DNA from: Thermoplasma acidophilum DSM 1728
Lineage (GTDB): Archaea; Thermoplasmatota; Thermoplasmata; Thermoplasmatales; Thermoplasmataceae
Assembly: GCF_000195915.1 (NCBI RefSeq)
Contig: NC_002578.1
Coordinates: forward strand, 1,235,644 to 1,299,643
DNA length: 64,000 nucleotides
Reading direction: 5' to 3'
This document shows positions 10,251-17,313 of this stretch, one piece after another (the stretch's first letter is position 1; the number at the start of each line of letters is the position of its first letter). The translations under genes were made by a program, and so were the position numbers. Below the pieces are notes generated by a model. The model was not told the origin of the DNA. It saw only the letters and a list, made by a program, of their open reading frames with translations, and searched no databases.

Positions 10251-10709
10251 ATGGTAATTATGTCTCTAGTTGTAACGGACATATTGAAGTACTACGAGCC
10301 TGAAATAAATGATGATCGCATATCAAAGCTATATATAACCACATCCAGAAAGGTTCTTGGCCAGGCCTACAGCCTACAGAACAAGATGATGGTTGTGGGA
10401 AAGCTCCTAGATGTCGCCATAGCGCCAGACAAGGAGAAGATAACAGAAACTGCCGTTCCGGGCAGAGACAGGCTCATAGGTACAAAGCTGGAAGCTTATT
10501 TCTTCACCGCAAACGGGAGCGACAGGGATTATCTGTTCTTCTCATCAAAGTTCAGCCACATACTGACAGAATACGCAATATTTGCAGAAGAGTATGAGGT
10601 AAAGGTCGAATTCATTTACGTCCAGAAGAAGATCGGCAAGATAAAACTATACACCAAGGGCACTGTTATGGACAGCTACAGATCCCAGGAGAGTGAGAGT
10701 GTTGGATGA
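10251..10709 (+). CDS. Unknown protein translationally coupled to a Vps4-like ATPase
   Basis: A 152-aa soluble protein that I do not recognise. It is alpha/beta in appearance, with a central hydrophobic GSDRDYLFFSSKFSHILTEYAIF segment and no signal peptide or membrane span. Its last 17 nt overlap the start of the AAA ATPase gene, so the products are probably made together and may work together as an adaptor or substrate. Starts at ATG 10251 or ATG 10260. A database search with HHpred against ESCRT accessory domains would be informative. Confidence 0.7.
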   Translation: MVIMSLVVTDILKYYEPEINDDRISKLYITTSRKVLGQAYSLQNKMMVVGKLLDVAIAPDKEKITETAVPGRDRLIGTKLEAYFFTANGSDRDYLFFSSKFSHILTEYAIFAEEYEVKVEFIYVQKKIGKIKLYTKGTVMDSYRSQESESVG

Positions 10710-11820
10710 CATCGACGAGAAGATAGATAAAGCGACTAAGCTGCTTCAGGGAGGAATAAAGGAAGAATCCCTAGGCCACAAAGACAAGGCAAAGGAGTAT
10801 TACTTCGCCGCTTACAGACTGATGCTGGAAGCCGCCAACGCGTCCCCCCCAGATCTCAAAAAGAAAAGACTGGATCAGTGCAACATCATTCTAAGTGCCT
10901 ACCAGCGCGTCAATGAAAACAGAACCGCACCAGCTGAAGAGAAGACCAGCGACAGGATATCTGAGGGAGAGGCCCTGCTTGAAGAAATAGGCCTAGAGAA
11001 GCCAGAGATACCGAAGGTAACGTTTGAGGATGTTGCTGGGCTTGATGACGTTAAAAACGAGATCCTCGGGAAGATCGTGTATCCGATGAAATTCAAGGAG
11101 CTGTCCCAGGAATACAATATTCAATTTGGAGGAGGCATGCTGTTGTACGGCCCTCCGGGCACAGGAAAAACCTTCATAGTAAAGGCCATAGCCAATGAGG
11201 TCAGGGCGAGGTTCATCAATGTAAACCCGGCCAGCCTCTACAGCCAGTGGTTCGGTATGTTCGAGAAAAACATATCGAAGCTTTTCCGGGCTGCGGCTTT
11301 GCTCTCTCCTTCAATAATATTCTTCGATGAAATAGATGCCCTTGTGCCGAAACGTGATACCTCAAACTCAGATGCGGCAAAACGGGGCGTTGCGCAACTG
11401 CTGAATGAGGTCGGCGGCATAAATTCACAGAAGAACAAGAATCTGTTCATCATAGCCGCAACGAACAATCCCTGGGAGATAGATGAAGCTATGCTGAGGC
11501 CTGGCCGATTCGATATCAAAATATACGTGCCGCCCCCGGACATTATAGCCAGAAAGAAGATCTTTGAGCTGAACATGGCCAAGGTTAAGCAGGCTGGCAA
11601 TATTGATTACAATTTGCTTGCCCAGCAGACTGAGGGGTACAGCGGTGCAGACATAGAATTCATATGCAAGAAGGCCAGCCAGAACGTATTCATGGAAGCC
11701 GTTAAATCCGGAAAACAGAGGCAGGTGGAGACCAGGGATCTCCTCGACGTGATCGGTAGCATAAAACCGTCAATCGATGCCGATCTGCTCTCGAAATACA
11801 GGGAATTCGCTGGATTCTAA
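10693..11820 (+). CDS. AAA ATPase of the Vps4/katanin (meiotic) clade with an N-terminal MIT-like domain
   Basis: 375 aa. Residues about 5-76 form three predicted helices resembling an MIT domain (EESLGHKDKAKEYYFAAYRLML). A linker leads to one AAA module: Walker A GPPGTGKT (153-160), aromatic pore-loop YSQWFGMFEKN (about 183-193, comparable with KWxGESEK of Vps4), Walker B IIFFDEID (208-215), the ATNNPW-x-ID sensor motif typical of Vps4/katanin, and arginine finger RPGRFD (269-274). Such ATPases extract ESCRT-III subunits. Start GTG 10693 or 10699; GGAG at 10688 fits the latter. An ESCRT-III-like gene lies 5 kb away (16532-17173). Could also be a proteasomal-type unfoldase. Confidence 0.85.
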   Translation: MRVLDDIDEKIDKATKLLQGGIKEESLGHKDKAKEYYFAAYRLMLEAANASPPDLKKKRLDQCNIILSAYQRVNENRTAPAEEKTSDRISEGEALLEEIGLEKPEIPKVTFEDVAGLDDVKNEILGKIVYPMKFKELSQEYNIQFGGGMLLYGPPGTGKTFIVKAIANEVRARFINVNPASLYSQWFGMFEKNISKLFRAAALLSPSIIFFDEIDALVPKRDTSNSDAAKRGVAQLLNEVGGINSQKNKNLFIIAATNNPWEIDEAMLRPGRFDIKIYVPPPDIIARKKIFELNMAKVKQAGNIDYNLLAQQTEGYSGADIEFICKKASQNVFMEAVKSGKQRQVETRDLLDVIGSIKPSIDADLLSKYREFAGF

Positions 11821-12363: not shown

Positions 12364-13989
12364 TCACGCGGCAAATACGCCCTCCTCCGCCACGTATCTT
12401 TTCCTTGCAAGATCCATCATCCTCCTCGTGAACAGTATTGAGTAAACCGCAACAACAATCCCAAAGATGAATGATCCCCATCCTGCCAGCGCAATATTGC
12501 CTGCATTCGTCTCCACATCTATGAATTTCATCAATCCAAAGTGCACCTCCAGGCTGTGCCCTGAGACTATATCCGGCCAGTACTCTCCTATCATCAGCCC
12601 ACCCCATGCGCTGTTGATCGTGGACGATATACCGGAGATCAGATATGGAAAGGTTCCAGGCAGTATGATGCTTCGCATTCTGGAGAAGTATCCCATATTG
12701 AGATTCTTCATGACCTCGAAGTACTCAGCTGGCAGTGCCTTGACACCCATCCAGAATGAGTAAAATATGTAGTAGAATGTACTGACAAACCCGAGCGAAA
12801 GCACATACACTTCGTCCGTAAATGGGCCAAACACGCCATGTATAAATGCGAAGCTAGCCGCAAATATGAATGGAAAGTAGATGGGAGGCGGATAAGCGCT
12901 CAGCGTCTGTATTATGGGGACGCCTATCCCCTCAGCGCGAGAATGCATAGCCAGATAGTATCCGAGGAATATTGAGATGACAAATGATATGGCGAGAATC
13001 ACACCCACTCTCAGATAATCATATAGAAGATACAGCATAATCTTTGGCGTCAGATTGAACAGCCTGCCCCATTCAGAGTGCGGAACCGAAACTATGAGAG
13101 TCACCGCGGAGTAGAGTATGAGACCAAGTATGATCACACCAATGGCCACGCTGATATATCGACTTATCTTCTCCTTTCGCTTTTCGTGCTTCTCGAAGAC
13201 CTCCGGAGGCCTTGACAGCGTTCTGGATCTGTAATATCCTGCAAGCCTTGACAGGGGGTTTCTAGCAACCACTGACAGAAGCCTGGTTGTCTGCTTTACA
13301 TTCAATCTGCCCCTTCTGATAATTGGCGCGTCTGTATCCACTGTGTACTTGGACACGGCATATCTGCTGAACTCCCTCAGGCCTATTATGATCACTATTA
13401 TGACGGCAGCCAGTATGCCCAGGGCAACATATATCAGTCTGATCTGGCCGCTGGCGGCCAGGGAATCCAGAACTGTGCCTATGCCAAATGTCTGGTATGT
13501 GTGTATCCCCACGCTGAAAACTTCACTCACCGTTATATAGAAGAATCCGTCTGATACGCTTGGGAAAAGGTTTGCCGCTATCCTGGGATACGAGAATGGT
13601 ATGAATATCCTCCTCATCTTTGTGAGAAAAGACATCTGGTAGTTTTCAGCAACTTCAAGCATCTCGCGCGGAACTGTCTTGAACGCCTGGTATTCGCCCA
13701 TCCATATGTTCCACACTACGGCCGTGAAAACAAGGAAGTCCGCGGCCATTTCAACTCCAAGAGGGCCACCTATCCTGGTGACAAATATGATCAGCACTAT
13801 TGGAAAGAAGGAGATCACTGGCACAGATTCGAAAACCTCGATTATCGATATATAGATGTTTTCGAAAATTTTGCCCTTTATGGCAGCATAGGCCAGAAAC
13901 CATCCGGTTACTATAGAGATGAGTATCAGCCCTAAAACGCGACCTGCCGTGGCGAGTGCTGCAAGGGTTATCAGCAGGATCTCGTTCAT
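12364..13989 (-). CDS. ABC transporter permease with duplicated BPD domains (anion-type)
   Basis: 541 aa made of two homologous permease halves. Each half has about five to six membrane spans and an EAA-like loop that contacts the ATPase (VPREMLEVAENYQMSF near 115 and LPAEYFEVMKNLNMGYF near 425). A charged linker around residues 235-285 joins the halves. This matches the archaeal duplicated-permease family of TauC/SsuC-type importers. It overlaps the ATPase gene upstream by 4 nt. No periplasmic binding protein gene is nearby, so the substrate (nitrate, sulfonate, phosphonate or other) is not known. Confidence 0.87.
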   Translation of the reverse strand: MNEILLITLAALATAGRVLGLILISIVTGWFLAYAAIKGKIFENIYISIIEVFESVPVISFFPIVLIIFVTRIGGPLGVEMAADFLVFTAVVWNIWMGEYQAFKTVPREMLEVAENYQMSFLTKMRRIFIPFSYPRIAANLFPSVSDGFFYITVSEVFSVGIHTYQTFGIGTVLDSLAASGQIRLIYVALGILAAVIIVIIIGLREFSRYAVSKYTVDTDAPIIRRGRLNVKQTTRLLSVVARNPLSRLAGYYRSRTLSRPPEVFEKHEKRKEKISRYISVAIGVIILGLILYSAVTLIVSVPHSEWGRLFNLTPKIMLYLLYDYLRVGVILAISFVISIFLGYYLAMHSRAEGIGVPIIQTLSAYPPPIYFPFIFAASFAFIHGVFGPFTDEVYVLSLGFVSTFYYIFYSFWMGVKALPAEYFEVMKNLNMGYFSRMRSIILPGTFPYLISGISSTINSAWGGLMIGEYWPDIVSGHSLEVHFGLMKFIDVETNAGNIALAGWGSFIFGIVVAVYSILFTRRMMDLARKRYVAEEGVFAA

Positions 13990-14798
13990 AGTTTCCTCAC
14001 CTTTGGAGGCGTAAGATAGTTGTACAGGGCATCCAGGATCTGGTTGAATTCCTCACTCCTGGGATTCCTGGGCCTTGGAAGGTCCACATGCACCTTTCCA
14101 ACCACTGTTGCCGGCACGTTATTTAGAACATATATTTCATCGGCTAACTCAACAACCTCCGTAAGGTTGTGCGAAACGAGGACGACACCCTTTAGTGGGG
14201 TATCCGGACTGAACAGTATGTTGTATATGTCCTGCCTGAGACCCTCTGCTGTGAGTTCGTCGAGATGCGCAAATGGCTCGTCCATGAGGAAAACAAGCGG
14301 GCTTGCAGCCAGGGCGCGTGCGATTGCCACCCTCTGCCTCATGCCACCGCTCATCTCCTTTGGATAAAGATCCTCAAACCCCTGTAGCCCTACCATTTCG
14401 AGAGCGTTTCTGGCCGCCTTCTCTGCTTCGTCGTCTGAAACGTTTCTTACCTTCAATGAAAGCATCACATTTTCAAGTGCGGTCAGCCATGGGAAGGTAA
14501 CTATGGACTGGTGAATCAGTATTATATCTGGAGTGGGCCTCACTATGGGCCTTCCAAAGAGATACACCATTCCACGGTCCGGCTTCAGAAATCCACCGAG
14601 TATCCTCAAAAGGGTGGATTTTCCAATTCCTGATGGACCAACTATCGCAACAAATTCATTCTGGCCCACATCAATATTCACATTTTCGAATACCTTGTAT
14701 CCATTTTCATAGGAAAAATCAATGCCCACAGCGCTTAGAACATACTGGGCAGCTCTGGCTCGTTGCATTGCATTATCCTTAATGAGATCCTCGTCCAT
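13986..14798 (-). CDS. ABC transporter ATP-binding protein (TauB/SsuB-like)
   Basis: About 270 aa. Walker A GPSGIGKST, Q-loop HQSIVTFPWLTALENV, signature SGGMRQRVAIARALA, Walker B LVFLMDEPFAHLD and H-loop VSHNLTE are all intact. The closest families are nitrate/sulfonate/taurine importers. ATG 14798 has an AAGGTG element 6 nt upstream; GTG 14807 and ATG 14804 lie within or at it and are less likely. First gene of a three-gene operon with the duplicated permease and the AAA_assoc protein. Confidence 0.9.
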   Translation of the reverse strand: MDEDLIKDNAMQRARAAQYVLSAVGIDFSYENGYKVFENVNIDVGQNEFVAIVGPSGIGKSTLLRILGGFLKPDRGMVYLFGRPIVRPTPDIILIHQSIVTFPWLTALENVMLSLKVRNVSDDEAEKAARNALEMVGLQGFEDLYPKEMSGGMRQRVAIARALAASPLVFLMDEPFAHLDELTAEGLRQDIYNILFSPDTPLKGVVLVSHNLTEVVELADEIYVLNNVPATVVGKVHVDLPRPRNPRSEEFNQILDALYNYLTPPKVRKL

Positions 14799-14942
14799 GG
14801 ACATCACCTTATGGAACAGTGAACTCCCCCGATCATGAGGCCAGGCTTCCAGCGCATAGATCTCAGTTCTTTTTCACGGGGCCATCACCGCAAAGCCCGA
14901 TCCCTAGAACATATATAAACACTGTTTTGCGTTCGGCAGACT

Positions 14943-15917
14943 TTATTTCTGCACCTTTGATAAAAGTAATATATCGTTCACCACCGCGCCGGCTGTTTCA
15001 TATGGGCCATCGTATATATCACTTACGTTCACAGTACCGTTGCTGTCGGTTTCAATCTGATAGCCAAGACCATCCATCCCGATGCTCATCAGGAAGTCGT
15101 CCTTATTCAGGGAGATGATGCGCGATACTGCAACTGGCCTGCGATCATCAACGTACACCTCTGTGACAAGGCGATCGTTCGCATTGTATGATCTCTCATC
15201 AACACCGGAATATTCAACATCGTTCAGTGTGTATTCCGTTCCAAATATATGGTTCACAAGTATCACACTCTTTCTGGCAGCATCCAGACCATTCAGGTCA
15301 TCCTGCGGATTGCTTTCTGCGATGCCCTTTTTTATTGCATCATCAACAACATCCCTCAGAGATCTTCCATTTGCCATGTTCCTGATTACATAGTTGATCG
15401 TAGAGCTCACGATGCCCCTGAACCGCTTTACCTTTGAAGGCAGGATTGAGTAATCAAGGACACTGAAAAGGGGCACACCACCAGCAACCGTAGCTTCATA
15501 CCGTATATACTTCGAATTCTGGTTTGCGGAATCCATGATATCATGCCATTTATTAGCTAACCCGGATTTGTTTGCCGTGACAACGTTCATGCCGGATTCG
15601 AACGCCATTCTGTAAAGTGAATATTCACGAACACCGTCTCTCGACGCAGGGGTGCAGTCAACGAGCAAATCGGCAGCTTCGCCCATGAGATCTTCCGGAC
15701 CGGAGAATGCTCGATCCGATATTCTGCCAGTCTTCTCTTTATTGGATATTATGCTCGAGATATCCAGATTTCTCCCAGAAGCATAGCTTCGAGAATCTGA
15801 TACTCCAACCACCTTAATACTAAATGCAGATCTTCTCCGATTGCTCGCATCTATTATTCTGAGAACGTTAAGGCCGACGTTTCCTGTTCCCATCAGTATT
15901 ATTCTGATTTCCTTCAT
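14943..15917 (-). CDS. hom: Homoserine dehydrogenase
   Basis: 324 aa. The NAD(P)-binding start LMGTGNVGLNVLRII, the VDCTPASRDG and NVVTANKSGLA blocks, the YEATVAGGVPLFSVLDY catalytic region and the GIAESNPQDDLNGLDAARKSVIL segment are diagnostic. The enzyme reduces aspartate semialdehyde to homoserine for threonine and methionine synthesis. It lacks the C-terminal ACT domain, so threonine feedback through that domain is not expected. Single gene between the ABC operon and a small membrane protein. Confidence 0.93.
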   Translation of the reverse strand: MKEIRIILMGTGNVGLNVLRIIDASNRRRSAFSIKVVGVSDSRSYASGRNLDISSIISNKEKTGRISDRAFSGPEDLMGEAADLLVDCTPASRDGVREYSLYRMAFESGMNVVTANKSGLANKWHDIMDSANQNSKYIRYEATVAGGVPLFSVLDYSILPSKVKRFRGIVSSTINYVIRNMANGRSLRDVVDDAIKKGIAESNPQDDLNGLDAARKSVILVNHIFGTEYTLNDVEYSGVDERSYNANDRLVTEVYVDDRRPVAVSRIISLNKDDFLMSIGMDGLGYQIETDSNGTVNVSDIYDGPYETAGAVVNDILLLSKVQK

Positions 15918-16093
15918 CCCGCAAATAAATAGCTTTGGCCTATAAAAGCTTCAGTCTCAGCCACAATAGCGGCACGGATCAATAATCTATGTATGCTTAC
16001 TTATTTGAAACTTAATGAAAAACACTTTAAAACCACACCCAACACCGGAATATATACGACAAATTTAAATAGATGCATTATGTTAATCATTCA

Positions 16094-16402
16094 ATGGTTG
16101 AATTAACGGGCTACATCCTTTTGATAGTTGCCCTCATAGACGGCCTGCTGTTTGGGCTGGCGATAAAAAAAGGCGTCACATCATTCATACTGATAGTGAT
16201 AGCGCTGATACTGTCAACATACGTTGGCTTTTCATTCGCTCCGCATGTATCCATCACGAATGTAACTGCAAAACTCCTGCCATATATAAGAAACTATGCC
16301 ACTCAGATCACGAATGATATATCCATAGGATTTGGCGGATCGCTTTCCCTGACGGTGGTTCTGTTCCTTGTCGGTTTGGCCGTTGGGCTATGGAAGGGAT
16401 GA
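16094..16402 (+). CDS. Small membrane protein, unknown
   Basis: About 102 aa with three hydrophobic stretches (YILLIVALIDGLLFGLAI, SFILIVIALILSTYVGFSF and LSLTVVLFLVGLAVGL). A TATA-like AAATTTAAAT at 16061-16070 is about 25 nt before ATG 16094, pointing to a leaderless start there rather than at the in-frame ATG 16073. I do not recognise a family; CvpA-like topology is possible. Divergent from homoserine dehydrogenase, with the ESCRT-III-like gene converging on it. Confidence 0.65.
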   Translation: MVELTGYILLIVALIDGLLFGLAIKKGVTSFILIVIALILSTYVGFSFAPHVSITNVTAKLLPYIRNYATQITNDISIGFGGSLSLTVVLFLVGLAVGLWKG

Positions 16403-16531
16403 ACACATCAAAACAGGATACTTCGATCAAATGCATAATGGGCGATTTCGGCTTTATTTATGCCCTTTTATTTGAATGGCAGTGGTTCCCTAAAAAATCA
16501 CCGCTTTAAAAAATGGACTATAAGACAAAGA

Positions 16532-17173
16532 TCATTTGTTCTGATCATCGTTGCTTTTCACGCCACCAAGTGATTTAAGCAGATCTTCAAGATCCTTGTC
16601 GGTAGACGATGATTCAGCAGGTTCCTGGGCTGCCTGCTTCTCCTGAGGCTTCTGCGATTCACCAGACAGTGACGACAGTATTTTATCGACACTTTCTGGA
16701 TTGTACTCGCCTCTCTGGTTGACCGCAGTGGTTATCTGATCAAGCTGGCTGCTCAGCCTCTCCTGTATCTGATCCGAAGCCGATATTATTTTCTCTACAT
16801 TCTGCTGCATCTGAATTACCTGCTTTTCTGTCAGCTGGCTCTTCAGGAGATCCTCCGATCCCTCCTTGAGGGATGCCCACACCTTCTTTGTCGTATCCGC
16901 AAACTGAAGGTTCAGGTCTATATTTTCAAGGAAAAGCTTGTAATCCTTCAGGCCACGTATGGCACTCTCCAGCGAAACTATGTTTGAAGCAAAGACGCGG
17001 GCTTTTTCTATATTCCCATCCTTCAGTGATATCTTGGCGTTCTGTATGTTCATCTCCCTGTTCTTCTCATACTGCCTGATTGCACGGTCTATATCGGATT
17101 TCCACTTGTTTATCCTGGAACGCCTTTCCAGCATTTTTTCCTCTTCACTCTTTCCAAACTTGAATAACACCAT
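16532..17173 (-). CDS. ESCRT-III/Snf7-like (CdvB-type) coiled-coil protein, candidate
   Basis: 213 aa, almost entirely helical. A basic N-terminal half (ERRSRINKWKSDIDRAIRQY, with AKISLKDGNIEKARVFASNI around 46-65) is followed by an acidic second half, a Gln/Glu/Ser-rich linker (172-192) and a short terminal motif DKDLEDLLKSLGGVK (192-206). That order (basic alpha1-alpha2 hairpin, acidic helices, linker, Leu-rich MIM-like tail) is the ESCRT-III layout, and the tail resembles MIT-interacting motifs. Start ATG 17173 has GGAG 6 nt upstream. A generic coiled coil (PspA/IM30-like) is the main alternative; PspA is itself an ESCRT-III relative. Confidence 0.6.
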   Translation of the reverse strand: MVLFKFGKSEEEKMLERRSRINKWKSDIDRAIRQYEKNREMNIQNAKISLKDGNIEKARVFASNIVSLESAIRGLKDYKLFLENIDLNLQFADTTKKVWASLKEGSEDLLKSQLTEKQVIQMQQNVEKIISASDQIQERLSSQLDQITTAVNQRGEYNPESVDKILSSLSGESQKPQEKQAAQEPAESSSTDKDLEDLLKSLGGVKSNDDQNK

Positions 17174-17313
17174 AATAATCTCCTTCAATACATCTGCTTT
17201 TCTTATCTGTTAAAATATTAATTTAACGTCAGATATAAACTTTTATGCGCAGACCGCCCCATGCTTTTCAAGAACCGTTACATTAACGTTGGTCATGCAT
17301 CTCAGCTACGCCG

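Follow-up and report, generated by a model that had tools for sequence, protein, structure and literature searches.

A minimal ESCRT system consisting of Vps4, ESCRT-III, and an arCOG07400 beta-barrel protein was reported for the Thermoplasmata in mBio in 2024 (PMC10936438), and that report names Thermoplasma acidophilum as carrying it alongside FtsZ and suggests a role in division, with other roles possible. A PLoS One survey from 2022 listed Q9HIZ5 as the CdvB of T. acidophilum, reported no interaction domain or motif in euryarchaeal Cdv proteins, and found MIM1 in Asgard archaea only (PMC8970359), and reports of a helical MIM1-MIT handshake in archaea are confined to Asgard lineages (PMC8970359, PMC7240154). 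We analyzed a 64,000-nucleotide stretch (the window) of the T. acidophilum DSM 1728 genome, which is a complete single contig of 1,564,906 bases. The window carries the same genes as the published minimal system, and the available text of that account describes neither an MIT-binding tail nor an operon-splitting inversion in the T. acidophilum lineage. A first-pass annotation of the window had correctly proposed an ESCRT pair but overlooked that the set is already known from this organism (PMC10936438). Among the papers searched, none joined Thermoplasmata, ESCRT-III, and MIM1, and the MIM1-like tail of Thermoplasmata ESCRT-III appears to be undescribed; this tail, an ancestral operon with a lineage-specific inversion, and tight co-inheritance of the genes are what we add here.

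The locus shares features with three described systems. The core of its ESCRT-III protein is closest to CHMP3/Vps24 within the eukaryotic Vps2/24/46 class (CHMP3/Vps24, CHMP1, CHMP2), with which it also has in common a C-terminal amphipathic helix with the MIM1 spacing of 0, +4, and +7; unlike eukaryotic MIM1, the helix has Leu for Arg at +3 and Gly for Arg/Lys at +8, and the protein is a single subunit. With crenarchaeal CdvB/CdvC the locus shares the combination of an ESCRT-III protein and an MIT-bearing Vps4-like ATPase, but the protein ends in a linker and one short helix, without the CdvA-binding winged-helix extension or the proline-rich MIM2 of CdvB, and the ATPase scores below the cut-off for CdvC equivalogs. 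The Asgard Vps2/24/46-type proteins similarly combine a Leu/Ile-rich, MIM1-like C-terminal helix with an MIT-bearing Vps4 (PMC7240154), whereas the window set has one ESCRT-III alone.

Identity of the ESCRT-III protein and its ATPase

The ESCRT-III (Snf7-superfamily) gene lies on the minus strand at 16532..17173, with its ATG at 17173, and encodes 213 amino acids; the plus strand across the same interval is full of stops. The first-pass annotation had the interval right and left the strand unstated, and its description of a helical protein with a basic N-terminal half, an acidic remainder, a linker, and a terminal stretch agrees with the net charges (+6 in residues 1-106, -8 in residues 107-213) and with the AlphaFold2 model. 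This model, of moderate confidence (mean pLDDT 72), predicts a long hairpin (helices 10-51 and 55-110), shorter helices at 116-154 and 159-170, and, after residue 170, a disordered linker followed by an isolated helix at 190-202. The Snf7 domain spans residues 18-186 (16616..17122, minus strand), with a Pfam match (PF03357) of 44.7 bits and an E value of 1.5e-11 against a gathering cut-off of 27.3 bits; at an E value of ≤1e-6, Snf7 had zero matches across 14 control genomes. A family profile built from 19 relatives (A1) matched human CHMP3 (E 4.5e-7) and yeast Vps24 (E 5.5e-6) in the PDB, with alignments spanning nearly the entire core. The top Foldseek matches to the model form a consistent list (CHMP2A/CHMP3, CHMP1B, CdvB, CdvB2, and Asgard ESCRT-IIIB), with modest E values (best 0.016, others worse), probably because the angles between the long helices in the model differ from those in filament structures.

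These results identify the 213-amino-acid protein as a true ESCRT-III, with the layout of this family (a long helix 1-2 hairpin, shorter helices next, a basic first half and an acidic second half), as the annotation had claimed in calling it ESCRT-III/CdvB-like. The annotation had named an Snf7 profile match as an outcome in favor of its reading and a plain two-helix coiled coil as one against it; the match was found, and the plain coiled coil is excluded. A coiled-coil protein unrelated to ESCRT-III would share the helical and charged composition, but we give this reading practically no credence, given an Snf7 score over the cut-off, the CHMP3/Vps24 profile match, and a model in which the hairpin is followed by shorter helices and which retrieves ESCRT-III folds. 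The closest named relatives, from Thermoplasma sp., have ESCRT-III proteins that are 92% identical, and a narrow alignment search yielded 9 named loci. We note that among 300 genomes a single match outside the family, of the same class (f7), had Snf7 above the cut-off at an E value of ≤1e-6 (L141, in G037).

The ATPase gene lies 4.7 kb away on the plus strand (10693..11820) and encodes 375 amino acids with a single AAA domain (Pfam AAA, E 3.2e-40), the core of which (residues 149-280; 11137..11532) contains a good Walker A (GPPGTGKT) and Walker B (IIFFDEID). The CdvC equivalog model NF041006 aligns to residues 13-372 with 226 bits, missing its cut-off of 650, and we therefore call the protein Vps4-like, in line with its co-occurrence with ESCRT-III, and not a CdvC equivalog. 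Vps4_C (PF09336) scores 16.4 bits against a cut-off of 21.3, with the last part of the domain alone aligned. The MIT domain (residues 2-75; 10696..10917) is likewise weak by sequence (Pfam 15.8 bits, cut-off 30). In the predicted structure, however, the N-terminal 75 residues are a clear three-helix MIT domain (helices 2-26, 30-50, and 53-75; mean pLDDT 86.5), and with a probability of 1.00 Foldseek matched them to the MIT domains of VPS4A, VPS4B, and yeast Vps4 and to two from Sulfolobus, most of these superposing at 1.2-2 Å. The Vps4-clade ATPase with an MIT-like N terminus that the annotation had placed about 5 kb from the ESCRT-III gene is thus borne out.

A conserved MIM1-like tail

The C-terminal tail of the ESCRT-III protein (residues 192-206, DKDLEDLLKSLGGVK; 16556..16600, minus strand) overlaps the predicted isolated helix. 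In the homologue alignments (A1, A7) the core is followed by a mostly unalignable Ser/Gln/Glu linker and then by a conserved last helix, which is retained even among homologues only about 25% identical. The motif phi-x-x-x-phi-x-x-phi occurs in the last 30 residues of 24 of the 27 nonredundant homologues, against 1.8 expected from shuffling each tail, a count that measures retention, since the proteins share ancestry, and not 27 independent events. The tail hydrophobics are leucines at 0, +4, and +7, preserving the three leucine-type positions of MIM1; in yeast Did2 the corresponding contacts are L195, L199, and L202, with arginines at R198 (+3) and R203 (+8), the first of which bonds acidic residues on MIT helix 3 (PMC5141497). 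Both arginines are absent from the window protein, and for this reason we term the tail MIM1-like and not MIM1; the MIM tail of the first-pass annotation accordingly stands as a conserved helix at MIM1 hydrophobic spacing but not as a canonical MIM1. MIM2, with its proline-rich phi-P-x-phi-P core, was rejected, as residues 192-213 contain zero proline. A search of the 22-residue tail against the PDB gave zero matches.

On the MIT side, the L64D substitution in human VPS4A blocks MIM1 binding (PMC11218997). The residue that we equated by eye with L64, Leu67 of the window ATPase, is invariant in a ten-sequence MIT alignment; hhalign of the MIT alignment against human VPS4A aligned helices 1-2 alone, and MAFFT misplaced the human helix 3. 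The VPS4A sequence used agrees with the published V13 and L64. At the MIT position equated with E68, most of the main ESCRT-III/Vps4 pairs carry Gln, Lys, Asn, Arg, or Leu, such that the facing glutamate is usually lost; these pairs have Leu ahead of the second tail leucine and mostly no acid on the MIT domain. In three adjacent paralogue pairs of groups g4 and g10, Arg or Lys precedes the second tail leucine, and the MIT helix opposite carries Asp. Six Ferroplasma-like genomes have a degenerate tail, with the MIT leucine replaced by Lys in the three of these tabulated. Covariation of tail and MIT domain is suggestive only, as read from these aligned sequences with helix 3 placed by eye and with exceptions at L094, L122, and L129 (the Vps4s of L094 and L129 are without the groove leucine).

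The paralogous pairs are located at L095:2582-4370, L097:2295-4056, and L125:5500-7289, with a basic tail of the form phi-x-K-[RK]-phi, and just upstream of pairs of this type lies another Vps4-like ATPase, whose N terminus differs.

Ancestral operon and co-inheritance

A third gene, on the plus strand at 10251..10709, overlaps the start of the ATPase gene, is a conserved neighbor in relatives, and encodes 152 amino acids for which we found no Pfam match and no PDB match. By its position it is most likely the arCOG07400 barrel protein of the published minimal system, a number inferred from PMC10936438. In 15 genomes from six genera of the family (g1, g3, g4, g11, g13, and g92), the barrel, Vps4, and ESCRT-III genes sit side by side in the same orientation, separated by <500 bases; 13 of the 15 have them in the order barrel, Vps4, ESCRT-III. 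In a second Thermoplasma (G075, locus L086), Vps4 is followed by ESCRT-III, a small membrane protein, a homoserine-dehydrogenase-like gene, an ABC ATPase, and an ABC permease, and the window carries exactly this five-gene block (12364..17188) reversed in order and orientation. A single local inversion that split the ancestral operon accounts for the distance and the opposite strand of the ESCRT-III gene, and the split arrangement is common to G043, G133, and G198. The 5-kb pairing in the first-pass annotation was right; the third gene, the ancestral operon, and the inversion went unnoticed there. In one half-complete genome (G320; L118:5488-6510) a stop interrupts the Vps4 gene adjoining an intact ESCRT-III and barrel gene, representing either an error or decay.

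Among 77 genomes of the family, with Vps4-type ATPases counted at an E value of ≤1e-85, ESCRT-III and Vps4 were each found in 41: 40 genomes have both, 35 have neither, and 2, each about 85% complete, have one alone (ESCRT-III in G273, Vps4 in G294). The barrel gene was detected in 23 of the 77, every one of which has both partners. ESCRT-III seemed from the first searches to be absent from six FtsZ-less g3 genomes, a result that was overturned when a wider profile recovered a divergent ESCRT-III at the same operon place in all six. Very divergent proteins of this kind (L112-L117, in G034, G052, G096, G178, G307, and G309), invisible to searches with the window protein or the first profile, lie in or beside the Vps4 operon of FtsZ-less genomes and have a degenerate MIM-like tail.

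Two FtsZ over the cut-off and SepF are present in the host genome, in keeping with the expectation in the first-pass annotation that this organism divides with FtsZ. FtsZ is missing throughout g3 (10 genomes) and g11 (3 genomes), and all 13 of these keep ESCRT-III and Vps4; g2 (2 genomes), presumably Picrophilus, is without both FtsZ and ESCRT-III. ESCRT-III is present in 28 of the 62 genomes with a tubulin/FtsZ match (Fisher p = 0.004 for the association, computed over related genomes that represent few independent events). We also observed a weak tubulin/FtsZ-like match of 25.9 bits, below the cut-off, in an open frame of ∼260 codons (L027; G000:C1:639179-639454), and comparably weak matches, in frames of 240-284 codons, turn up repeatedly in the family in addition to the two full FtsZ genes; judging from sequence, these frames may possibly encode a third, shortened tubulin-superfamily protein.

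Proposed mechanism and cellular role

The best overall explanation, which we consider fairly likely, is that the product of the gene at 16532..17173 is the only ESCRT-III subunit in a minimal ESCRT of three genes (barrel, Vps4, and ESCRT-III) working as follows, by analogy with the ESCRT-III and Vps4 families. The basic helical core and the hydrophobic-basic N terminus (MVLFKFGK) most likely polymerize on the inner face of the membrane, and the polymer would narrow a membrane neck. The C-terminal helix, on its flexible linker, would dock in MIM1 fashion in the helix 2-3 groove of the MIT domains of a Vps4 ring, which would then pull subunits from the filament, leading to constriction or recycling. 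The cellular event would be either the last scission step of division, alongside FtsZ, or the release of vesicles. That the two proteins form a membrane-remodeling pair, as proposed in the first-pass annotation, is supported by their identities, the predicted MIT fold, conservation of the tail, the ancestral operon, and joint inheritance.

The absence of the MIM1 arginines leaves room for another use of the tail, either as a helix folding back on the core in autoinhibition or as a binding site for the barrel protein, with Vps4 recruited otherwise. We regard this as unlikely, in that the tail is attached by a disordered linker, that ESCRT-III and Vps4 are inherited together, and that the tail is also kept where the barrel gene is undetected, which makes Vps4 the more likely partner; the conserved tail is probably how the filament protein grips its Vps4 motor. 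Alternatively, the genes could be degenerate Cdv remnants without a working interaction, as proposed for Euryarchaeota (PMC8970359), and the weak MIT and Vps4_C family scores and the reported long branch are in keeping with such decay. The conserved operon, co-inheritance, and a tail that persists despite deep divergence indicate instead lasting selection on the ESCRT-III/Vps4 pair; this reading is largely contradicted already and very improbable, and the conserved tail together with the predicted MIT fold argues against an absence of interaction in Euryarchaeota.

It is a closer matter whether the pair acts mainly in outward vesicle budding from a cell without an S-layer and not in division. 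The FtsZ and SepF genes of the host make a division role unnecessary, the absence of ESCRT from many FtsZ-containing relatives suggests that it is dispensable when FtsZ is present, and Sulfolobus ESCRT-III and Vps4 occur in secreted vesicles (PMC6524685). We hold a vesicle role to be quite conceivable, though not the expected one: division is slightly favored because every genome of the FtsZ-lacking g3 and g11 keeps the pair, a better fit to division that represents few independent events. We lean neither way on the fuller proposition that Thermoplasmata ESCRT-III recruits Vps4 through an undescribed MIM1 variant, in which the Arg-Glu salt bridge has been replaced on both sides, that helical MIT-binding tails extend beyond the Asgard-eukaryote branch, and that a minimal ESCRT works in a wall-less archaeon that also contains FtsZ.

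If true, a MIM1-like tail in Thermoplasmata would push the MIM1-MIT handshake, or a parallel invention of it, beyond the Asgard branch. The set in the window is related to the machinery with which human cells cut membranes, but it is small: with one filament protein, one motor, and one small extra protein, it is about the smallest ESCRT described. It stands beside FtsZ in some genomes and without FtsZ in others, which, together with its small size, makes it well suited as a natural test of ESCRT function in archaea.
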